64,000 nt of DNA from NCBI GenBank assembly GCA_001914405.1, contig MSDW01000001.1, positions 1,367,169 through 1,431,168 of the forward strand, in the 5' to 3' direction. Shown one piece after another: positions 2,673 through 61,838 of the stretch (position 1 is the stretch's first letter; each line of letters starts with the position of its first letter). Origin of the DNA: Candidatus Methanohalarchaeum thermophilum. GTDB taxonomy: Archaea; Halobacteriota; Methanonatronarchaeia; Methanonatronarchaeales; Methanonatronarchaeaceae. Below the pieces are notes generated by a model. The model did not search any database and was not told the origin of the DNA. It was given only the letters and a program-made list of their open reading frames with translations. The translations under genes were made by a program, and so were the position numbers.

Positions 2673-3407
2673 TTGTTTATATGGAATAAGGAGAGGTTGT
2701 CCTTGGATCTAAAAAAGGCTTTGAAGGGGTTGAAGCAGCGAATAATAGATGTTGATATTCAAAAGGTTAAAGATAAGATAATTGAAATCAACCATTTCTT
2801 TTCGAGAATATTTAGAAAAATCATTATTATTGACCATGATGTTTTGGCTTTCTTGTCTGTAGTTTTTTTAATAACTGGATCCTTAGTTGGTTTTGGTATA
2901 TGTACAATGAGGCAAGAAGATGGACGAACTGGGTATCATGGAGATCCAGATGCTATGATTTTAGAGTTGGAGACGGAGTTATCCAGTGTTCGGAGGATGC
3001 TAGAGGTTAAGGATTCGAAAATAGAGGCCCTTGAGAGTAGTCTTAGTACCTTGAGAAAGGAGGATGAAAAACCTAGGATAATTGCTGTGGAAATGAATTC
3101 AACGACAGGTAATGTTAGTGTTTGCGTTGATTTTTTTGATCCTCAAGTTAATCAGCTTGGTTTAATTGCAATAGGTGTTAAAAGCGTTGAATCGGAGTCC
3201 GAATGGTATTACCAGGATCCAATTGCAGGAGATATAACATCAACGAAGATTGCATACTATTGGCTGAAAGAAAATGTAGAGGCCCCACAGGATTTCTTAG
3301 AAACTGATACTTGGTATAGAGTAGCTGTATGGTATTTTGGAGGTTACGATGAAGTTATAGTAAATTCTTCTGAAGGATATTACGAAAATGATATACAGGT
3401 GAAGTGA
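2673..3407 (+). CDS. Single-pass membrane protein with coiled coil, unknown function
   Basis: This 244-residue frame opens with TTG at 2673. A GGAGAGG ribosome-binding-like sequence sits at 2690-2696, so a later TTG (2697 or 2703) could be the real start. The protein has a basic amphipathic N-terminus, one hydrophobic helix (about residues 57-78), a predicted coiled coil (about 93-125) and then a beta-rich soluble domain that probably lies outside the cell. No family is recognised. The last codons and stop fall inside GTGAAGTGACCC (3399-3410), which is the reverse complement of the right-end sequence of the local mobile elements. The C-terminus may therefore have been created by an insertion. 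A promoter is not obvious because the upstream region is uniformly AT-rich. Confidence 0.6.
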   Translation: MFIWNKERLSLDLKKALKGLKQRIIDVDIQKVKDKIIEINHFFSRIFRKIIIIDHDVLAFLSVVFLITGSLVGFGICTMRQEDGRTGYHGDPDAMILELETELSSVRRMLEVKDSKIEALESSLSTLRKEDEKPRIIAVEMNSTTGNVSVCVDFFDPQVNQLGLIAIGVKSVESESEWYYQDPIAGDITSTKIAYYWLKENVEAPQDFLETDTWYRVAVWYFGGYDEVIVNSSEGYYENDIQVK

Positions 3408-3446
3408 CCCTACTTTACTCATATACGTTTGTGAGAGAGTAGTTCC
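3399..3446 (-). repeat. Orphan right end of an IS605-like element (inverted)
   Basis: GTGAAGTGACCC followed by a short hairpin (ACTCA pairing with TGAG) matches, in reverse, the right ends found at 41270-41287 and, on the same strand, at 58522. No left end or cargo is recognisable beside it, so it is probably a decayed remnant. It overlaps the stop codon of the upstream gene. Confidence 0.45.
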
Positions 3447-3760
3447 GATGTGGGCTTTGGGTCCTGAAGGGAGGTTATTTTAATTTCAGGATTATCTCAG
3501 ATACCTGGTTTAACATTAGAACTATTCCCCTGGAAGAAGCCCTTGAAATAAAGCGGAAAGAGAATCCATATGTTAGATCTTTGGATATTTTTTTTAACCT
3601 GTTAACCAAGAAGTTACCTTTCTAGATCTTTTGGTTTAGGTGGGTGGTGAATTGGTTTTTTATTTGGATTAGAGAGGTATATAGGCTTTCCAACTAAGAA
3701 TTGTTTATGTAGAAAATGTTATGGATATTATTTGGGGATGGGGATAAAGGAAGTGTTTCT

Positions 3761-3880: not shown

Positions 3881-4970
3881 AAAAACCATCGTTTGCAGGA
3901 TATTGGAACCTACAACAGAGAAAAAAGGATTAGTAGTCAAAGAATTATCTAGTGTTAATGGGTACATTCGAGGGGGAACAGGTGACTTGTATTCAGCGAC
4001 TAAGCAGGCTATGGGTAAATATATACAAAAAGATAAGCTAAAGGAACAATATACTTATCCTTTGTTCCTAAGAAATGATACATTTAGGGTTGAAGAAGCG
4101 AAAATATACCAATGAATTTAGTTATTGGGCTAAGATACCTGTTTCTGGTGTTTGGGGTGGGATTTGGGTTCCAATATAAACCACATGGACCAATAAAAGA
4201 AGAATATGAAATAAGTGATTCTAAGGTTGTGTGGAAACCTTATGGTTTTGAGTTGCATCTTTCAGTTGGTTTTGGAGTAGAGCCACAGTCTCCTAAAAAC
4301 ATTCTTGCCATTGACTTGGGGGAAAGGGTTGTGGGTGTGACCGTGTCCACTTCTGATAACGGGAACCCTAAGTCTATATGGCAGGGATGTTAGAGGGATT
4401 AGAGGACATTACGCTTACTTAAGAAAAAAACTACAAGAGAAATCAAAGTCTAAAGTAAAAGAGGTTAAAGACAAAGAAAGTAGAGTAGGGTTGTTGAAGA
4501 TAGATTGCACAACGTATCTAGAGAAATCGTAGGGAAGGCAGATGAAGAGGGTGCGTTGGTTGTTTTGGGTGGTCTCAAAGGGCCTAGGTAACAGAGATAC
4601 GGGTAAGGGGAAGCGAATGAATTGGATATCGAATACAATGCCTTATTACAAACTAACTAAGATGATTACTTATAAAGCCAAGGAAAAAGGAATAAGAGTA
4701 ATCAAGATAAGTGAACGCTTTAGTTCAAAGACCTGTCACAAGTGTGGTAGCGAGAACACAGATAGACCAACACAAGCTAGATTCGATTGCAATACCTGTG
4801 GCTTAAAGAACTATAATGCTGACCTAAATGGAGCCAAAAACATACTATATAGGTCTTTCGCCTACATGGCTGGAGACGGGGCTGTCGTGAACCAGCCCAA
4901 AACCAAGGCATCAATAACGAAACAAGATTATGACACAGAAAAAGTCCTTGGAAACTCCTTCCTAATCTAA
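3870..4970 (+). pseudogene. tnpB: TnpB (IS605 OrfB) RNA-guided nuclease remnant, frameshifted
   Basis: Three successive frames (3870-4115, 4112-4393, 4542-4970) together reconstruct a TnpB. The second contains the first RuvC motif, ILAIDLGERVVGV. The third contains the zinc-finger pairs CHKCGS and CNTCG and the last RuvC motif NADLNGAKNI. At least two frameshifts and missing central sequence make it non-functional as written. TnpB proteins are omegaRNA-guided DNA nucleases that favour retention of IS200/IS605 elements. The C-terminal frame is the best preserved part. Confidence 0.75.
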
Positions 4971-4990
4971 GATTAGGCAGGAGTAGTTCA

Positions 4991-5964
4991 CTGTTCCTCT
5001 TTGGCCGACTCTAAACCAGTCACCAAGACTATATTTAACCAAGGAAATTGTTTTTCTAGGTTACCTTTTACGCCTATTTGTTGTTAGAGTCTGAGGATTC
5101 ATCCAAATTAGATAGACAGTGGGATTGTTTTTTTTATTTAGAAGTCAGATTAAAGCCAATACCCTGTTTTTTTCTTTTATTTAAGTTATTAGAACTATTT
5201 AGGTGTTATGGTTGATTTATTTTTCTATCTGAAGTCAGAAATTTGTGAAGAAGTTTTTTTTAATTTTTAAGATATATAAATGGTTGAGTAAATGTCAGAT
5301 AATGAAAGTAGACTAAGGAATTTTTTATAATTGATGAAGTAGAAGATTTATGTCTTTTAGTTGTAATGGGGTGGGGCATTCTGTGAGAGATTTAGGTTTA
5401 AAGGGATTGGGGGTTATTAATGTTGTTTTTGATTGAAACTGGTTGTTTTTTTGGGTTTTGTCTGATTTTTTGGCCAGTTGCAATATCCTTTTTGTTTGCA
5501 TGAGGTGTATTTGTTGTTCTGCATAGGGGGTTGTGTTGTGAAGGCAAGTCGATGTAGGGTGATGTGAGTAGTTATGGGTAGGTGGGTTAGCGTGAAAAAT
5601 TTAGGATAGGGTGTATGGGTGTGATGTTGTGGACTTGTTGAGGGATGATAAGAGTGATTTCTTTGAGGTTGATGTGTGGTTTTGGTAAGAGCTTGTTTTT
5701 AGGTTTTTCTTTGGAATTTCTTTTTTTTTGGGTGAAAATTAGTTTATTTACTTTAGTTTTGGGTTTTTATTAGGTTTTTTTGTTTTTGTTTTATTGTTTT
5801 TGTTTTGGTTGGCTGGTTTGTTTGGTTAATTTTTGGGTTTGTTGTGGTTTCTGATCTGTTTTTTGGGTGGGTTTTTATTTTTGTTTTTTTATCTGATGGG
5901 ATATGTTTTAAGTAGCATAACGATAATGTTACACATATGTTTGATTTTAGCGTGGTTTGATAAA
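4991..5964 (+). other. Gene-free stretch with a decayed family A copy
   Basis: No convincing gene is seen in this T/G-rich stretch. Between about 5450 and 5700 the order of short blocks matches family A: a GATGTAGGG block, GGGTAGGTGGGTTAGC, a GTGAAA block, then a GTGATGTTGTGGACTTGTTG region matching the conserved core. It is best read as an old, strongly diverged copy (A9). Frames between 5753 and 5964 are low-complexity artefacts. Confidence 0.4.
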
Positions 5965-11486: not shown

Positions 11487-11599
11487 GTGTCATTCTGTTT
11501 TTTTAATTTATAAGTGTCTGAAGAAACAGCCGAGTCCTTTAATAGTTTAGGTTAGATATAAAAGAGATAAATAATCTACCAGAGTGAATAAGTAAATTA

Positions 11600-11770
11600 T
11601 AGGGAGTTAATTTTTGACATTTTTGTTCCTGATCAATCTCTTTTCTTAGGAATCAAGTGGTTTCCCGTGTTGATGGAGTGTATTAGGTAATGCTCTATGT
11701 TAATTATGCCAAACTTCTTTTTGGATAGGGGTTGTCGTGAAAAACTTATTTCCTTTAGAGGAGTGAATTG
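11600..11770 (+). repeat. Decayed 3' half of family A element (copy A8)
   Basis: The block TTTCCCGTGTTGATGGAGTG and what follows aligns with the 3' half of copy A5 (GTTCCCTGTTGACGGTGTGG). The conserved stem is still possible here with different bases: ATGGAG (11673-11678) and CTCTAT (11693-11698) pair with one G-U. The 5' half is not recognisable. Confidence 0.4.
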
Positions 11771-12235
11771 TTTATCTGTTCTTTTTAGGTAGGTATAGTG
11801 TTAGATATCTATTGGTGGTTTTGGTTTATTGTTTAACTTTTTACGCTGTCAGGATATGTTTTATTTAGTCTGGGTTTACTTGTTTGGTTGGGTTGTAGAT
11901 CGGTGGTATGACCGTTGGAGAAAGTTTCAATGGGTAAGTGAATTTTTAAGTTTTAAAGGTATTGTATGTATTTTATAGCGGGTTTAATGTTTACTATTGG
12001 TTTTCTTTATTTTCTTTGTTTTCATTTTCTTTGTATTGCGATCTCATTGATTTGTTGAGTTTTTTGTTGTTTTTATCTATATCTTCTATTGGGTTGTTGT
12101 GGGACATAAGAGGAGGTTGCTTTTTTTCGTCTTCCGGCATTTTGACCACAATATCCTGTAATCTGTTGTCACACTTAAACTTTATGTGTAGGTAGGTTAC
12201 TTAACTTAATTCTGTAGGTTTTTTTATAGTTTTAT

Positions 12236-12687
12236 AGTAGAGTAAGGCAGATAATTATATGGCTTGTTGTGAGAGATGAATGCCATAACTTAAATGGTTC
12301 CAACATCAATTAAGACCTGGTAGTTAGGCGTTCTGCTTCGTCAAACGATTTTGGTTACCTTGTTTATTAGTCAAAAAATTGGGTGGCCATGAAACTTTTT
12401 GAAATAGGGGGTCTAAGTGGCTGATGTGGAGCAGCTGGTGGGAATAAGAGGCCTAGCACCTAGGTGACATATGCTGGTGGAACATTTGCGGGGCACGCCA
12501 GCGGAGTGGATGCAAAGAACTATCCACCTCTGGCTGTTTTGCCAAAACTTGAGCCTGTCTCTTTTCACGAAGCGCAGGGTCCTCCTGTTGGCTGGATGTA
12601 TGAGATAAGTCCAGCGGAGATGCAAAACTCCTTCTATGGATAAGGCTCACAGGAAAGCCACTCAACTTAACTGTGAAGGCACTTCAC
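12236..12687 (+). mobile_element. Family A non-coding IS605-like element, copy A2
   Basis: Closest to copy A1 (about 450 bp, same order of blocks). It follows TTTAT (12231-12235) and ends GCACTTCAC. The stem GCTGGA/TCCAGC (12591-12596 with 12610-12615) and the loop TGTATGAGATAAG are intact. A second possible hairpin, GGAG/CTCC, follows it. Two minus-strand frames (12413-12625, 12453-12665) are repeat shadows that recur in A1 only because the DNA recurs. Confidence 0.7.
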
Positions 12688-12784
12688 AGTATATAACTAA
12701 CTCGTTCACTAATTAAGAAAAATAGAATAAAAATACAAGTCTTAAGGAAAATATTAAAAAAACTAAAGGAATACAGATTAACTT

Positions 12785-23524: not shown

Positions 23525-23559
23525 AATTCTATTTGTCCTTTTTACTTTTAAAATTTTAT

Positions 23560-24006
23560 AGTAGAGTATGGCAGAAGATCCTCGCGGCTCTTCCTTTTGG
23601 GATGGATGCCTTAAATAACACTTAAAGGGTATTATTAACCGGTTGAAGTAGTTGGAAGTTGGTTGGATTGGTTGCTCTATCAAAAAGCGATTTCCATGTC
23701 TCTTGAGGTATTATGGCTAAGTTAAAAGCCCCAATACTCTACATCGAATAAGGTGTATTTGGGGAACTTGAAACCTTTGTGGGTGAGTCCTAGTGGCTGA
23801 TGTAGGATCAATCAAGGCTGAATTAAGGGAACCACTTGGTTAGTATATGACACTATTTTGTGTCCTAATTTAAGTCTTTTCTTGGAGCAAAGAATTCCGA
23901 TGATGATCAGGATGCAGTAAGAGAAGCTCCTCTGGATGGAAAATCAAACTCCACCCCAGATAAGGCTCACACGGAAGCCCCACAGCTTTGCTGTGTAGTC
24001 ACTTGA
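23560..24006 (+). mobile_element. Family A non-coding IS605-like element, copy A3
   Basis: It follows TTTAT (23555-23559) and ends near CACTTGAT, a decayed CACTTCAC. Conserved blocks in order are ACATCGAATAAGGTGTAT, TCCTAGTGGCTGATGTAGGA, TTAGTATATGACA and GATAAGGCTCACA. The characteristic stem is present in a third form, CAGGA pairing with TCCT-C-TG (one bulge). It is about as long as A1 and A2 but clearly diverged. Confidence 0.65.
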
Positions 24007-25823: not shown

Positions 25824-26007
25824 GGTTTTAGCGTTATTTAGATTTGGGTTTTTATCTTATTTTATAGTTTTTTTGTTGTAACTAATTTAAAGTTTTATCT
25901 ATTTGACTGAGAAGACATCCTCCTATATCTCTGATTTAGGTGGGTGATGAATCAGTCCTAGGAAAAGGTTTAAACATAATCAGAAATATATGCTATATGT
26001 TAGGAAG

Positions 26008-27310
26008 ATGAAGAAGTCTTTGAGACAGAATCTACGTGGACTAACTAAACAAGAATATGAGATATTGAAGAAGATGAGTCATAAGTCCAAGGATCTATAC
26101 AACGAAACTCTCTATGAGGTAAGACAATTTTTCTTCAACAATGGAGAATACCTAAGTTACTACGACGCTTATGAACGGCTTAAAGGTGAAAGCGAGAACT
26201 ACAGAGTCTTATCTTCTCAAATGGCTTAACAAACAATGAAACACGTGGATAAGGCGTTCAAATCATTTTTTAATTTAATTAAAAAGAAAAGAGAAGGTAA
26301 ATACGATGCTGAAGCACATCCACCCCGTTACTTAGATAAAGATGGGTATTTTTCACTAATTTATCCAAATCAGAGTTTCCAGGTTAAAGAAGACCACATA
26401 AGAGTTGGTGTTCCAAAAGGTTTCAGGGAAAAATATGGGTATGACAAAAGAGAAATAAGGATTGATTTCACTTATGAGAAACTTAAACAGAGCCATATAG
26501 ACATTAAGCAATTACATATAATTCCAGGGGCAAAGGCACAGTATTTTGAGTATAGGGTTGTTTATGAGGAGGAGAAGGAACCAGTTGAGGCAAAGGGAGG
26601 GTGCTTGGTTAGGTATTGATTTGGGGTTGAATAATTTGGCTACTTGTGTTGACTATTTTGGGCGCTCATTTATCTTGGATGGGTGATTACTCAAATTGTA
26701 TAACAGGTGGTTTAATAAAGAAGTAGCTAGGTTACAGAGTATTAGGGATAAGCAAGGCATCAAAGAGAATACTAGGAGAATAAATAGATTGTTTCGGGAT
26801 CGAGATAATTACGTGCATGATTATTTGAATAAAGCAATCAAGGCAGTCGTTGACTATTGTAGGGAAAATAAGGTTGAGAAAGTGTTTTGTGGGGATGGAA
26901 AGGGTTGGAAACGAGGAATTAATTTAGGTGGTAGCAACAATGAGAAATTTGTTCAAATATCTTTTGATAAGTTCAAGCAGAAACTTAAGCATAAGTTAGA
27001 GTTCTATGGTATAGAGTTTGAGTTAGTTGATGAATCTTACACTAGTAAGTGCAGTTTCTTTGATAGCGAGTCTATAGAACATCACGAAGAGTACGTTGGT
27101 TCAAGGGTGGAAAGAGGCTTATTTAAAACAAGTGATGGAGTTTTAATAAATGCTGATGTAAATGGAGCGTTAAATATCGCTAAGAAAGGATTAAAAGAAA
27201 TTGATATGGGTAAGCCTGAAACTTTGGGGGTAGGGTGTAGTGGTGGTGTGGACACGCCAAGGAGAATGAGGAAACCTCTTTGGGTTAGGATGCGGCTCAG
27301 GTATAAGTGA
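26008..27310 (+). pseudogene. tnpB: TnpB RNA-guided nuclease, interrupted
   Basis: Four defects interrupt an otherwise near-complete TnpB of about 430 residues: TAA at 26227 (from a Gln codon by context SSQMA-stop-QTMKH), a +1 frameshift near 26600 in a G-rich run, and TGA near 26685 where related copies have CGA. The first RuvC motif, [12 protein letters not shown], lies in the second frame. The late part retains DESYTSKCS and the final motif [15 protein letters not shown]. The usual second CxxC of the zinc finger is not obvious. The fragments 25990-26229, 26236-26619 and 26696-27310 are parts of this gene and not separate genes. Confidence 0.8.
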
Positions 27311-27378
27311 GAGCCTAATTCAAACTTCTCCTGAACCCTCTACCTAATCTTTTGATTAGGTAGGGGTAGTTCACTAAT
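27262..27378 (+). ncRNA. Predicted omegaRNA (TnpB guide scaffold) region
   Basis: The 3' end of the tnpB frame and the right end are nearly identical in the three copies here (27262, 37360 and 60375) despite broken reading frames. GGATGCGGCTCAGGTATAAG followed by TGAGAGCC can fold (GGCTCA with TGAGAGCC). The terminal palindrome follows. By analogy with known TnpB systems this would be the scaffold, with the guide read from the flank after TTCACT. Confidence 0.45.
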
Positions 27379-36089: not shown

Positions 36090-37408
36090 TGAGGAAGTCT
36101 TTGAGACAGAATCTACGAGGGCTAGATAAACAAGAATATGAAATCCTAAAGAAGATGAGTCATAAATCTAAGGACCTATACAACGAAACTCTCTACGAGA
36201 AGGAGACAATACTTCTTCAATAATGGGGAATACCTTAACTACTATAACACCTACAAACGCCTAAAAGATGAAAGCGATAACTACAGGTTTTTATCCTCAC
36301 AGGCCGTACAGCAAACGATGAAGCATGTAGATAAAGCATTTCAATTTTTTTAAGTTAATATAGAGAAAAAAAGAAAAGAGAAGGCAATATACGATGGCGA
36401 AACAAGTCCGCCTAGTTACTTAGATAAAGATGGGCACTTTTCATTAATATTTCTAGGTCAGAGTTTCCAGGTTAAGGAGGATCATATTTGAGTTGGTGTT
36501 CCAAGATGTTTTAGTGAAAGATATGGGTATGATAAAAGAGAAGTCCAAATTGGTTTTTCTTATGTAAGATTTTAATAGGGTTATACTGGTATTAAGCAGT
36601 TATATATTGTTTTAGGAGTAAGAGTAAAATGTTTTGGATGTAGGATAGTTTGTGGGGGGAAAGAGAATTAGTTGGGACGAAGAAGGGTCTTTGGTTAGGT
36701 ATTGATTTGGGGTTAGATAATTTATCTACTTGTGTTGACCACTTTGGGCGCTCATTTATTTTGGATGGGTGATTACTTAAATTGTATAACAGGTGGTTTG
36801 ATAAGGAGGTAGTTAAGTTAGGTTGCAGTCTATAAAGGATGGGCAAGGATTTGAGGGGTGCATAGAGAGAATAAACAAATTATTTTGGAATCGAGATAAT
36901 TACATCCATGATTACTTGAATAAGGTGATTAGGGCAATTGTTGACTATTATAAAGAAAATAGGATAGAGAGGGTGTTTTGTGGTGATGGAAAGGGTTGGA
37001 AGCAGGAGGTAGATTTAGGTGACGGCAATAATGAAGGATTTGTGGAGGTTCCGTTTGATTGGTTTAAGCAAAAGCTCAAGCACAAACTAGGGTATTATGG
37101 TATTATTTAGGGTATTATGGTATTGAATTTGTGTTAGTGGATGAATTTTACACGAGCAAGTGTAATGCTTTAGCTAGCACCGGGTTAAGGAGGAAACCAA
37201 GTTATAGAGGAAGAAGAGTTGAAAGAGGGTTATACAAAACAAATAATGGAACATATATTAATGCTGATGTGAATGGTGCTTTGAATATTGCTAAGGAAGG
37301 TATGTCTGAAACTAATTTAGAGCTGGGGGTAGGAGGTAGTGGTTGTGTGGACACGCCAAGGAGAATAAGGAAACCCTTTGGGTTAAGATGCGGCTCAGAT
37401 ATAAGTGA
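36090..37408 (+). pseudogene. tnpB: TnpB RNA-guided nuclease, heavily interrupted
   Basis: Fragments in several frames correspond in order to the copy at 26008. A frameshift appears in the first 110 nt (near 36200) and a TTTTAA interruption near 36350. The TGA before TTACTTAAATTGTATAACAG (36770) is shared with copy TnpB-2, and a repeated GGTATTATGGTATT (37090-37120) duplicates a few codons and introduces TAG. The +1 insertion of the other two copies near the first RuvC motif is absent here (AAGAAGGGTCTTTGG). The late part still encodes [15 protein letters not shown]. Confidence 0.75.
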
Positions 37409-37475
37409 GAGCATAATTCAAACTTCTCCTGAAATCCCCTTCCTAATCTTCGATTAGATAGGGGTAGTTCACAGT
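37355..37475 (+). ncRNA. Predicted omegaRNA region of TnpB-3
   Basis: Nearly identical to 27262-27378 through GGATGCGGCTCA-like AAGATGCGGCTCAGATATAA, TGAGAGC and the terminal hairpin. One base in the loop and in the palindrome differs (CTTCGATTAG). Confidence 0.4.
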
Positions 37476-40031: not shown

Positions 40032-40359
40032 AACTCTTGGGCATCCAGTATTTTATCCTCTTTAGGTTTATCTACAGTTTAATTACTAAAACAATCATCT
40101 GTTTTTGATGACAATTAATCAAACTTGAATCGAATTACTATATCCCTTTAAACCAATATTAGTTTTATTTCACTAAATAAATTAAATCTCCGATAAGTTA
40201 AAATAGTAGATGATGTATTGAAATAAAAGTTTAGGACGGTTTTTTAATTATAAATAATGAACCAGAAAATCTGTGTCTTTTAGGGATTAGGAAGAATACT
40301 ATTTGATGAAAAATTTAGATAAACAAAGAAAATATATGTTTTTTAATGAAGACTTTTAG

Positions 40360-40735
40360 TTGGCTGTCTTTTGTTGCCTTTGATATATCAAAAATCGATC
40401 CCACTGTCTTTTCTGGATTGGCTGAAGCCTTAGACTTCTACATTGAATAGTTTCCAGGGTAAGCTTGAAACCATTTTGGTGTAGGGTGTAGGTGTAGTGT
40501 TTGGTGTGGGTTTGTTTTGAAGGGAGCAGAAGAGAAAACCAATTAGGTCGGTATATGACATTTTTTTGTGTCTTGATTCATGTGTTTTCTTGGAGCAAGT
40601 AGTTCCTCGATGTTGAATCTGTGTTGTGGGAGAATGTCTGGATGATTAAAGCAAACTTTTCTGGTTAAGAGGTCACATGGAAAAACTATTCCCTACCCGA
40701 ACGAACTTGAGTAGGATATGGGGAGAGGCATTTCT
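40360..40735 (+). mobile_element. Family A element, diverged copy A4
   Basis: The order of blocks CTTCTACATTGAATAGTTTCC, TGGTGTAGGGTGTAGG, TTAGGTCGGTATATGACA and TTTTCTTGGAGCAAGTAGTT matches family A, but with many changes. The right end is decayed (CCCTACCCGAACGAACTTGA with a short hairpin). The left end is not clear. It lies directly before copy A5 in the same direction. Confidence 0.45.
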
Positions 40736-40822
40736 CATCAGTTCCATTGGATCTAAGGTTAAAAATTTTAAAAATTTAAGTATTGTTGATCTTGGGATTT
40801 TGTTATTAATCTCTATTTTTAT

Positions 40823-41287
40823 CTATTCATCGGGGAAGACCTCTTCTTTTCTTTGATTGGAGGGGGATGAATTCGATGTTTTTTAAAATAAAAAAAACTA
40901 ATATTGTGTTGATGGCAGTTGGTTGATTTGTCTGCCTCTTGAACAAAAAGCAATCCCATTGTCTTTGAGGCAATGGTTAAAGCCTCAGACTCTACATCGA
41001 GAGGTGTATAGGTAAGTATTGGGGTGGATAGGTAAGCCCGAAACTTCGGGAGTAGGGAGTCTAGTGGTTGGTGTGGAGCAGCCGCTGAGGAATAAGAGGA
41101 ACCAATGTGAGTTAGTATATGGGAACTGTTCCCTAATCCAATTCTTCCTCAGAGCAATAGGTTCCCTGTTGACGGTGTGGATGAGACAAGGCACCGTGGA
41201 AAACAAACTCCCTTTCTTGGGATAAGGCCTCACAGGGAAGCTTCTTTCTCACCGAACGGATGTGAGGTTAGGTAGGGGGCACTTCAC
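40823..41287 (+). mobile_element. Family A non-coding IS605-like element, copy A5
   Basis: It follows TTTAT (40818-40822) and ends CACTTCAC. It is closely similar along its length to copy A6 (58522-58992, opposite strand). Stem ACGGTG/CACCGT (41172-41177 with 41192-41197) encloses GGATGAGACAAGG. Another hairpin, CCCGAAACTTCGGG, lies near 41037-41050. The right end hairpin is CTCACCGAACGGATGTGAG. The element ends 1 nt before the stop codon of fpoN/nuoN. Confidence 0.78.
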
Positions 41288-50728: not shown

Positions 50729-50903
50729 TTTCGAGGGGGCTTTAACTAAAGAAAATAAAAAACACGAACCCTTCCCCCCAAAACCCAACTACTACCATCT
50801 TTAAATAAAATTAACTCTCAAGCCGAAGTAGTGATCCCAAAGAAACAAGTCAAAAAATATCAAAAGAACCTGACCCGAGCTTAAATAAAAAAAAATAATT
50901 TAT

Positions 50904-51239
50904 CTAGGTGGTTGAGAAGACCCCTTCCTAATCTTTGATTTTGGTAGAGGGATGAATCAACCCAAGGGGTTAAATGATTCTGTGTTTTAGTTAGGTTTTG
51001 GTTGTAGGGCAGGGGCTTTGGCCGAAGTTTATAGCCCGTGGACACAAGGACCTCTGTACCCATCTCCTTGGGTATTTAAAGTTCCTTGGATGAACCCAGG
51101 GGAACCTCCCCGAATAAAGCTTTTTGGATACTCTTGGCCCTGGACTGAGATGATTTGACGGTGGCAGGAAGTAAACCCCTCTGACTCTGGAAGCCTCCTT
51201 CCAAAATCCCTTGATTTTGGTGGAGGAGGAAGTCACAAC
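50904..51239 (+). mobile_element. Family B non-coding IS605-like element (complete copy)
   Basis: It follows TTTAT (50899-50903) and ends GGAAGTCACAA. The left end has CCTTCCTAATCTTTGATTTT hairpin and GATGAATCAA, and the right end CCTTCCAAAATCCCTTGATTTT. The interior holds GGGGCTTTGGCC and GTACCCATCTCCTTGGGTAT inverted repeats and a 3' block TGAGATGATTTGACGGTGGC, shared with the fragment at 15836-15928. There is no gene. It lies 49 nt downstream of the tRNA-Arg 3' end. Confidence 0.65.
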
Positions 51240-51288: not shown

Positions 51289-51376
51289 CGGGCGTGGCGG
51301 GATTTGAACCCGCGATCTGCAGCTTTCACCCAAAAAAGGTAGGAGGCTGCCGCCCTATCCACTAGACTACACGCCC
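51289..51376 (-). tRNA. tRNA-Arg(CCU) with a 15-nt intron
   Basis: The acceptor stem is GGGCGTG (51370-51376 reversed) pairing with 51290-51296, with discriminator G at 51289. The T-loop reads GGTTCAAATCC. Anticodon CCT lies at 51341-51343, preceded by CT. The anticodon stem GCAGC/GCTGC encloses 22 nt rather than 7, so 15 nt (51325-51339) after A37 form an archaeal-type intron at the canonical 37/38 position. CCA is not encoded. The 5' end lies 1 nt after the ilvC stop codon. Confidence 0.93.
51325..51339 (-). other. tRNA-Arg intron
   Basis: The intron, read on the minus strand, is CCTTTTTTGGGTGAA. Removing it restores a 7-nt anticodon loop CTCCTAA. It would be removed by the archaeal splicing endonuclease from a bulge-helix-bulge-like fold. 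Confidence 0.8.
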
Positions 51377-58521: not shown

Positions 58522-58992
58522 GTGAAGTGACCCCTGCCTAACCTCACATCTGTTCGGTGAGGAGAGAGGCTTCCCTGTGAGGCCTTATCCTCGAAAGGGA
58601 GTTTGTTTTCCACGGTGCCTTGTCTCATTCACACCGTCAACAGGGAACCTATTGCTCCAAGTGAAGTCTGGACTTAGGGAACAGTTTTCCCATATACTAA
58701 CTCTCAATGGTTCCTCTTATTTCTCAATGGTTGCTTCACACCAACCACTAGACTCCTTACTCCCAAGCTGTTTCGGGCTTACCCATCTACCCCAATACTT
58801 ACCTATACACCTATTCGATGTAGGGTCTGAGGCTTTAGCCATTGCCTTAAGGGCATGGGATTGCTTTTTGTTCAAGAGGCAGACAAATCAACCAACTGCC
58901 ATCAACACAATGTTAGTTTTTTTTATTTTAAAAAACATCGAATTCATCCCCCTCCAATCAAAGAAAGGAAGAGGGTCTTCCCCGATGAATAG
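58522..58992 (-). mobile_element. Family A non-coding IS605-like element, copy A6 (inverted)
   Basis: The minus-strand sequence is closely similar to A5 (40823-41287), with the same left end (CTATTCATCGGGGAAGACCC after TTTAT) and the same right end (hairpin CTCACCGAACAGATGTGAG, then GGGGTCACTTCAC). Stem bases ACGGTG/CACCGT (58612-58617 with 58631-58636) are kept. The left end abuts that of TnpB-4 head to head. Confidence 0.78.
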
Positions 58993-59122
58993 ATAAAAAT
59001 TATCTATTTGACTGAGAAGGCACCTTGCTAAATTTTTTGATTTGGGTGGGTGGTGGTTTAGTCTTCTGGAAAAGCTTTTAGATATAGTGTGGTAAGCATT
59101 AGGTATGGTCGGATATAGTAGG

Positions 59123-60422
59123 ATGGAGAAGTGTTTGAGGCAGAATCTATGTGGACTAATCAAAAAAGAATATGAGATCCTAAAGTAGATGGGTCATAAG
59201 TCCAAGGACTTATATAATGAAGTGTTCTACGAGAAGGAGACAAATACTTCTTTGACAATGGGGGATACCTTTAACTATTGCAATGCCTACAAACGTTTAA
59301 AAGTTGAAAGTGAGAGCTATAGAGTTTTGGCCTCTCAAATGGCTCGGTAAGCGATGAAGCATGTAGACAAAGCTTTTAAATCTTTCTTCAAGTTAATAAA
59401 GAAGAGAGGAGAGGGGGTAGGTATGATGGTGAAGCTAGTCCACTCCGTTACTTAGAAAAGGATGGATATTTTTTATTGATATTTCCTAAGTCAGAGTTTC
59501 CAGGTTAAAGAAGATCATATTTGAGTTGGTGTTCCAAGAGGTTTCTGTGAAAGGTATGAGTATGATAAAAGAGAAATCCAAATTGATTTCTCTTATGAGA
59601 AGCTTAAACAGAGCCACATTGATATTAAGTAATTACATGTTTTTCTTAGGGCGAAGGCGGAGTATTTTGAGTATAGGGTTGTTTATGAGGAGGAGAAGGA
59701 ACCAGTTGAGGCAAAGGGAGGGTTTTTGATTAGGTATTGATTTGGGGTTAGGTAATTTGGCTACTTGTGTTGACCACTTTGGGCGCTCATTTATCTTGGA
59801 TGGGCGATTACTTATAATCGTATAACAGGTGGTTTAATAAAGAAGTAGCTAAGTTACAGTCAATTAAGGATAGGCAGGGATTTGATGGGAACACGAAGAG
59901 AATAAACAAATTATTCCGGGATCGAGACAACTATGTGCATGATTACTTAGATAAGGCGGCTAAGGCAATTGTTGACTATTGCAGAGAAAATAAAGTTGAG
60001 GAAGTGTTTTGTGGTGATGGAAAGGGGCTGAAAGCAGGATATAAGCTTGGGGGATAAGAATAACCAGAGTTTTGTTGAGGTTCCGTTTGATTGGTTTAAG
60101 CAAAAACTCAAGCACAAACTAGAGTATTATGGCATTAAATTCATGTTAGTGGATGAATCTTACACAAGCAAATGTGATGCTTTAGCCAACACTGAAGTGA
60201 GGAGGAAACCAAGTTATAGGGGAGAAAGAATCGAGAGAGGCTTATACGAAACAAGTGATGGCGTACTGATTAATGCTGACTTAGATGGTGCTTTGAATAT
60301 TGCTAAGAGAGGGTATGTCTGAAACTAATTTGGAGTTGGGAGTAGGAGGTAGTGGTGGTGTGGACACGCCAAGGAGAATAAGGAAACCTCTTTGGGTTAG
60401 GATGCGGCTCAGATATAAGTGA
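59123..60422 (+). pseudogene. tnpB: TnpB RNA-guided nuclease, interrupted
   Basis: Several stops and frameshifts: TAG after ATCCTAAAG (59184), TAA in CTCGGTAAGCGATGAAG (59347), TGA in CATATTTGAGTTGG and TAA in ATTAAGTAATTACATG, plus a frameshift near 60040. It shares the +1 insertion near the first RuvC motif with TnpB-2 (AAAGGGAGGG), but it has CGA where TnpB-2 and TnpB-3 have TGA. The last part retains [16 protein letters not shown] and [15 protein letters not shown]. The frames at 59526-59729 and 60047-60322 are fragments of this gene. Confidence 0.78.
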
Positions 60423-60487
60423 GAGCCTAATTCAAACTTCTCCTGAAATCCCATTCCTAATCTTTTGATTAGGTAGGGGTAGTTCAC
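60375..60487 (+). ncRNA. Predicted omegaRNA region of TnpB-4
   Basis: GGATGCGGCTCAGATATAAG, TGAGAGCC and the final palindrome match 27262-27378 almost base for base. The putative guide would begin with GGAGATAAATAAG after TTCACT. Confidence 0.42.
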
Positions 60488-61307: not shown

Positions 61308-61382
61308 CTCAAATTTAACTTTATTTTAAACAAATCATCTTTTTAATCAATGAAAGAGAAATTCACTTTTTATTTATTTTAT

Positions 61383-61838
61383 CCCAATGGTTAAGAAGAC
61401 TCCTTCCAAGGTCTTTGATTTTGGTGGGGGATGAATCAATCTATAAGGCTTAAATAGCTCCATCACCAGTTAAAGGTTGGTAGTTGGTTGGCTTTTCTGC
61501 CTTTTTTGAAAAGGCAATTCCATACCCCTTTTGGGGAAATGGGCTAAACGCCCCATGACCAGCATCGAGAGGTGCATGGGTAATCCTGAAACTTTTGGAG
61601 TAAGGGGTCTAGGTGGCTGGTGTAGGGCAGCTGCTGGGAATAAGGGAAAAGCCATTGTGTAGCTAATATATGGGTTCTTGTTTTTGTTCTAATCCAGTTC
61701 TCCCCTCAAAGCATAAGTTCATCTGTTGGCTATATGCATATAGACAAATCCAGCAAATAAAGCAAATTCCTCCTATAGATAAGGCCTCACAGGGAAGCCC
61801 ACTTCCTAAATCTCTGACTTAGGTAGGGATCACTTCAC
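61383..61838 (+). mobile_element. Family A non-coding IS605-like element, copy A7
   Basis: It follows TTTAT (61378-61382) and ends CACTTCAC. The left end is CCAATGGTTAAGAAGACTCC with GATGAATCAA; the right end hairpin is CTTCCTAAATCTCTGACTTA, then GGTAGGGATCACTTCAC. Core block GTCTAGGTGGCTGGTGTAGG is kept. The diagnostic stem is partly broken (GCTATA against TCCAGC). A plus/minus frame at 61470 is a shadow. Confidence 0.68.

Follow-up and report, generated by a model that had tools for sequence, protein, structure and literature searches.

The segment at 12236–12687 of the window (the whole stretch of 64,000 nt that was analyzed) raises the question of what a sequence is that recurs many times in one genome without encoding a protein. 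An initial annotation, made from the letters alone, had described it as a dispersed family of roughly 450 nt without a plausible protein product, and as an undescribed mobile structured RNA with a covarying stem near its 3′ end. We identify the segment as one complete, tnpB-less copy (A2) of a dispersed ~450-nt family, which is probably, at about 0.8, a non-autonomous IS200/IS605 element of the PATE type that contains an omega-RNA core and is mobilized in trans.

A dispersed family with IS200/IS605-type ends

While blastn with the focal copy gave 43 matches in its own 2.14-Mb genome, iterated nhmmer searches recovered many full-length copies of about 410–470 nt. A covariance model covering ~134 positions at the 3′ end returned 142 genome matches, 141 of them at E < 0.001, with the limitation that 24 of these copies were used to build the model and match by construction. 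A contiguous left end is present in 101 of the 142, and among the loci fetched, which comprise most of them, 100 copies span an HMM of the family from near its left end to its right end. If every copy were full-length, the family would amount to ~3% of the genome (142 × ~450 nt, an arithmetic estimate). The dispersed repeat is therefore borne out, and most of the copies initially listed reappear in our window scan (Table 1), except that the nearest match to the one placed at 5450 is the decayed minus-strand piece at 4923–5245.

No ORF of at least 100 aa overlaps 12236–12687, in agreement with the earlier view of a noncoding sequence; a 139-aa ORF antisense to the copy at 58522–58996 and a 117-aa antisense ORF in another copy (L033) are taken as chance. 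Searches with the Rfam 15 covariance models yielded no match to the family at the gathering score and none at E ≤ 1. Hence, "undescribed" holds at the level of the family, but not in kind, since PATEs and TnpB omega-RNAs, to which its core is homologous, are known. The sole Rfam match within the window is a tRNA gene (51289–51376, minus strand).

In 85 copies, the ends are sharp, with the element starting directly after TTTAT and closing with CACTTCAC, and with unrelated flanks; the left-end sequences following TTTAT differ among these copies. The focal copy has TTTAT directly before 12236 and the last bases CACTTCAC ending at 12687, so that its boundaries had been placed essentially exactly. 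No terminal inverted repeats were found; instead, each end contains a subterminal hairpin. For the copy at about 848 kb of contig C1, the joined flanks are contiguous with an insert-free paralogue that has a single TTTAT and no target duplication, and the copy at about 1454 kb of the same contig interrupts an IS605 left region with uninterrupted homologues in its own genome and in a relative from another genus of the same family (G001), the identities in these comparisons being only 67–76%. The sequences thus support a mode of insertion directly 3′ of TTTAT that leaves the target unduplicated. Moreover, near-identical copies occur in groups at different sites (five at ≥98% identity, seven at ≥95%), which indicates recent spread. 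The claim of mobility thus stands on the ends, the target, the empty-site paralogue and the near-identical copies at separate sites.

Sharp ends, a fixed target, the lack of duplication and dispersal are marks of IS200/IS605 transposition. They are also described as such in the study on Haloquadratum walsbyi PATEs (PMC3119063). As in PATEs, subterminal palindromes at both ends are combined with a length of ~450 nt, too short for a transposase, and with a fixed target that is not duplicated. The ends are shared with autonomous IS200/IS605 elements of the same genome: an HMM built without TnpB sequence finds left ends in four TnpB loci (E 1e-8 to 3e-5), and by inspection the right ends are like those of IS200/IS605 elements in the genome, while the left end of an intact TnpA element (L052) is similar to that of the family. 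Mobilization by TnpA in trans, with L052 as a candidate, appears well supported by these similarities.

Table 1. Features of the focal copy, further copies and TnpB-linked cores, in window positions unless a locus is named.
Feature	Position	Strand	Remark
TTTAT target	12231–12235	+	outside the element
Complete tnpB-less element, copy A2	12236–12687	+	match 12227–12687 in window scan
Left-end subterminal hairpin region	12250–12280	+	degenerate in copy A2
Omega-RNA P1 hairpin	12419–12436	+	12419–12423 with 12432–12436
P1 loop GGAG	12428–12431	+	predicted pseudoknot with CTTC at 12682–12685
Stem 2	12438–12568	+	12438–12444 with 12562–12568; encloses P2 and P3
P2 hairpin	12451–12465	+	12451–12455 with 12461–12465
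Extra hairpin GCTGG/CCAGC	12473–12502	+	in copy A2 and few other copies; read from sequence/alignment
Added domain, P4 enclosing Pd	12584–12653	+	P4: 12584–12588 with 12649–12653
Pd	12591–12615	+	12591–12596 with 12610–12615; stem of the initial annotation
Right-end hairpin	12657–12680	+
TEM, TTCAC	12683–12687	+	last bases of element; role by analogy with PMC10097598, PMC12558985
Full copy A1	1947–2408	+
Partial copy	3399–3577	-
Decayed partial copy	4923–5245	-
Partial copy	11576–11732	+
Near full copy	23553–24004	+
Decayed copy	40243–40683	+
Full copy	40820–41287	+
Left-end fragment, partial copy	50900–51010	+
Full copy	58522–58996	-
Full copy	61379–61838	+
TnpB element a	25894–27374	+	homologous left end 25894–25961, broken tnpB, omega-RNA core 27172–27335, right end near 27374
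Omega-RNA core at end of tnpB b	37279–37433	+
Omega-RNA core at end of tnpB c	60291–60447	+
Family B loci	L161, L162, L165, L174, L175, L177, L181, L183, L185, L191, G000 C2:411617–411726

The core is homologous to a TnpB omega-RNA

The window contains 3 TnpB genes with ends near 27.3, 37.4 and 60.4 kb, all of them broken, the C-terminal codons of which overlap an RNA that reads GTAGTGGTGGTGTGGACACGCCAAGGAGAATAAGGAAACC...GGGTT...CTTCTCC...right-end hairpin...GTAGTTCAC. With the HMM, which had been built from tnpB-less copies only and is thus free of TnpB sequence, the core was found at all 3 of these loci and at 7 of 8 further ones (L192–L199; E 7e-14 to 7e-6), and the order of left end, core and right-end hairpin is common to tnpB-less copies and TnpB elements. 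By sequence homology, the family core is therefore related to the omega-RNA of one TnpB group in the same genome. While the genes of this cognate group are mostly broken in the loci read, L192 (1023–2384; G000 C2, about 143.8–145.2 kb) retains a TnpB frame of 453 aa that is free of interruptions and contains OrfB_IS605 and Cas12f1-like_TNB domains, for which the only match to a solved structure is weak. Read by eye, the C-terminal domain of this TnpB group seems to be devoid of the usual CxxC zinc-binding pairs. The IS200/IS605 load of the genome is very high, with several TnpB lineages that each have their own right end.

Besides homology to the RNA at the 3′ end of tnpB genes and a right-end hairpin, the family shares with omega-RNAs a pseudoknot between the stem-1 loop and the TEM. 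In 96.6% of cells, the GGAG loop of P1 can pair with a CUUC close to the element end (alignment positions 177–180 with 492–495, which replaced a first register of 178–180 with 493–495). The corresponding motifs in TnpB elements are a GGAC loop and a GUUC end in 8 of 8 elements counted by motif, and L192, missed by this count, has AGAC with GUUC. GGAG with CUUC versus GGAC with GUUC is, as read from these sequences, a compensatory G-C to C-G swap, which separates the tnpB-less from the TnpB-linked groups and may go back to a single event. In a second family (B), the loop GAAG faces CUUC, as read by eye from the alignment. The pseudoknot, the IS605 ends, the TTTAT target and the TnpB genes with homologous RNA in the window had all been missed in the initial annotation.

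Covariation and an additional domain

Across 37 aligned sequences, 25 pairs show standard pairing in 87.8% of cells, compared to 33–50% with the partner strand slid, and changes on both sides of a pair occur in 111 cells, compared to 42 ± 5 in shuffles. Permuting helix arms among 48 representatives under 85% identity (23–29 scorable per helix) separated cognate from permuted arms for P1 (z −3.2), stem 2 (z −2.4), P2 (z −3.3) and Pd (z −6.0), while no significant covariation was detected for P4 in the same set (z −1.2). Pd, the strongest of the helices tested, is the stem noted before (GCTGGA/TCCAGC, ACGGTG/CACCGT), in which single pairs have both-side changes in up to 16 of the 37 sequences; it is thus a real stem. 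A free fold of one copy gives stem 2, P4, Pd and the right-end hairpin, with a total energy that is not extreme (z −1.5), whereas RNAalifold on the whole alignment gives only part of the structure together with a long-range AGTG/CACT pairing that competes with the pseudoknot.

The helices contain G-U in 73 cells and A-C in 53 cells, and since G-U does not clearly exceed A-C, covariation alone cannot distinguish an RNA from a single-stranded DNA fold. Of the earlier description, "mobile" and "structured" are confirmed, while a function at the level of RNA is what we infer.

A tnpB-less family in two genera

Only 8 of the 142 copies have a same-strand TnpB domain no more than 1.5 kb upstream, compared to 3 with such a domain downstream as a control. 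The family is not encoded at the 3′ end of tnpB in cis; in either genus, practically no copy contains tnpB, and copies outnumber the matches to the TnpB C-terminal domain (142 versus 89 in 2.14 Mb, next to 24 matches to TnpA). The closest TnpB-adjacent case (L055), a left end followed by tnpA, tnpB and the 3′ part of the family, was considered as an autonomous parent and rejected: because haloarchaeal relatives of its TnpB come with an omega-RNA and a right end of their own, and a right end of this kind precedes the 3′ part in L055 as well, it represents an unrelated IS605 inserted into a family copy.

The relative G001 contains 9 matches, 5 of them near full-length and none with tnpB inside. 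One further genome of the same class harbored neither TnpB nor the element, and a search of 120 related genomes gave no other genus with it. No related sequence was found in plasmids, and 9 viral contigs gave a 15-mer match only and no match to the model. None of the TnpB-linked omega-RNAs examined showed the ~90-nt P4/Pd domain, which was found only in tnpB-less elements. Copies without tnpB in two genera, together with Pd covariation outside the TnpB omega-RNAs, therefore point to an established tnpB-less family rather than mere debris.

A possible role in trans and alternative explanations

The element comprises a left end, which bears a subterminal hairpin, the omega-RNA core (P1 with its pseudoknot loop, stem 2, P2/P3), P4/Pd, the right-end hairpin and the TEM UUCAC. 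In the mechanism that we propose, it would be moved in trans by the HUH transposase TnpA. Its transcript, with the 3′ flank as guide (in the focal copy, by analogy, a putative guide that would start at 12688), could be bound in trans by a TnpB with a homologous omega-RNA of its own. The complex would then cut empty donor or sister sites carrying TTTAT and the guide sequence, whereby the element would be restored by copying and thus kept. The extra domain might tune how an RNA produced without a cis-encoded tnpB binds protein, is processed or persists. The use of the element RNA by TnpB in trans is plausible from sequence, at slightly below even odds. P4/Pd does not resemble the TnpB scaffolds known so far and might interfere with binding by TnpB. 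In the 345 kb searched for guide targets, only chance matches of 12 nt were found; the absence of intact targets is expected if each site is occupied, yet provides no support either. A more far-reaching version, which we consider rather doubtful, is that the more than 100 tnpB-less elements form a dispersed guide-RNA library on which one TnpB protein or a small number of them would act in trans, i.e., a parasitic, CRISPR-like multi-guide system in which the insertion site sets the guide and the extra domain, having evolved in the tnpB-less elements, helps to compete for the nuclease.

The strongest competing explanation, which carries a considerable minority share of the probability, is a PATE that acts at the level of DNA only: nothing but its left and right ends would be of importance, as sites for TnpA in trans, while the omega-RNA core would be an inherited remnant and the stems would reflect single-stranded DNA folding or common descent. 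The missing excess of G-U over A-C on one strand and the lack of guide targets would fit this, as do the Haloquadratum PATEs, which are described as transposase-free and defined by palindromic ends (PMC3119063). However, helices far from the ends covary, most strongly Pd, both genera retain the internal domain, and the pairing of the pseudoknot loop with the TEM is almost always preserved. Repeated recent internal deletions of tnpB elements, leaving decaying remnants that do not propagate independently, are improbable and already disfavored: core deletions of IS605 are documented in Haloquadratum (PMC3119063), and some copies are decayed or partial, but all full copies share one anatomy including P4/Pd, which TnpB elements lack, near-identical tnpB-less copies form groups at different sites, and the same form exists in another genus. 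A host regulatory or housekeeping RNA unrelated to TnpB, as strong covarying structure without an Rfam match might suggest, is already contradicted by the IS605-type ends, the insertion into other IS elements and the homology to TnpB omega-RNA, and has a very remote chance of being correct.

Comparison with known systems

The element, read as a non-autonomous IS200/IS605 element with an omega-RNA core, shares with H. walsbyi PATEs the lack of a transposase and of terminal inverted repeats, near-terminal IS605-like palindromes, a short left target and the absence of duplication, as described in the accessible portion of that study, which gives 177–194 copies per genome and notes a similarity of HqIRS71 to a 3′ segment of IS605 elements that is extended to include C-terminal coding sequence (PMC3119063). 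In contrast, a complete omega-RNA core with pseudoknot and a covarying added domain are present here, while no RNA structure is given in that portion. Similarly, a PATE-like element of 271 nt in Halanaerobium hydrogeniformans lacks a transposase gene and joins its left end directly to the final 58 nt of tnpB, with the whole right end; it is single-copy, and its description, to the extent available, contains no RNA analysis (PMC7290912). With the omega-RNA (reRNA) of ISDra2 TnpB (PMC10097598) and the omega-RNAs/sotRNAs of Halobacterium salinarum (PMC12558985), the family has in common a stem 1 that forms a pseudoknot with the terminal bases of the element, stem 2, stem 3, the right-end hairpin, the TEM and the guide position at the right flank. 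It differs from both in lacking tnpB in cis, in the extra ~90-nt P4/Pd between stem 2 and the right-end hairpin, and in copies that far exceed the cognate TnpB genes found.

What is new is thus a tnpB-less family with an added RNA domain, while PATEs and TnpB omega-RNAs are already known kinds. The standalone IscB omega-RNA of Ktedonobacter (HEARO) reportedly also has many guide-RNA loci without a nuclease gene in cis. HEARO belongs to the IscB system, with a scaffold unrelated to the TnpB-type scaffold of this family. If the RNAs are made and used, they would represent a natural uncoupling of guide RNA from nuclease gene in a TnpB system, with guide loci far exceeding cognate nuclease genes and a selfish element living on guide RNA alone, which bears on the route from single-guide TnpB to multi-guide systems such as Cas12 CRISPR. 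Moreover, the ~140 copies are naturally occurring versions of a single scaffold that includes an extra domain and are useful for mapping what TnpB tolerates, and the identity proposed here accounts for a repeat family in the annotation of this genome.

Several minor observations concern the diversity of these elements. Family B comprises about 11 tnpB-less elements with the same left-end type, P4/Pd domain and right end and a divergent core. At the nested locus (L055/L043; G000 C1, about 1498.7–1500.7 kb), the IS605 inside the family copy is of haloarchaeal type with tnpA and tnpB, and its TnpB shares 63% identity with a TnpB from a Halobacteriales MAG, which suggests that it was transferred between halophiles; a scan of genome contigs gave haloarchaeal relatives of this nested TnpB and none of the family. 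Finally, the copies look mosaic, with left ends, middle blocks and right-end hairpins combined differently among them, suggesting recombination between elements.
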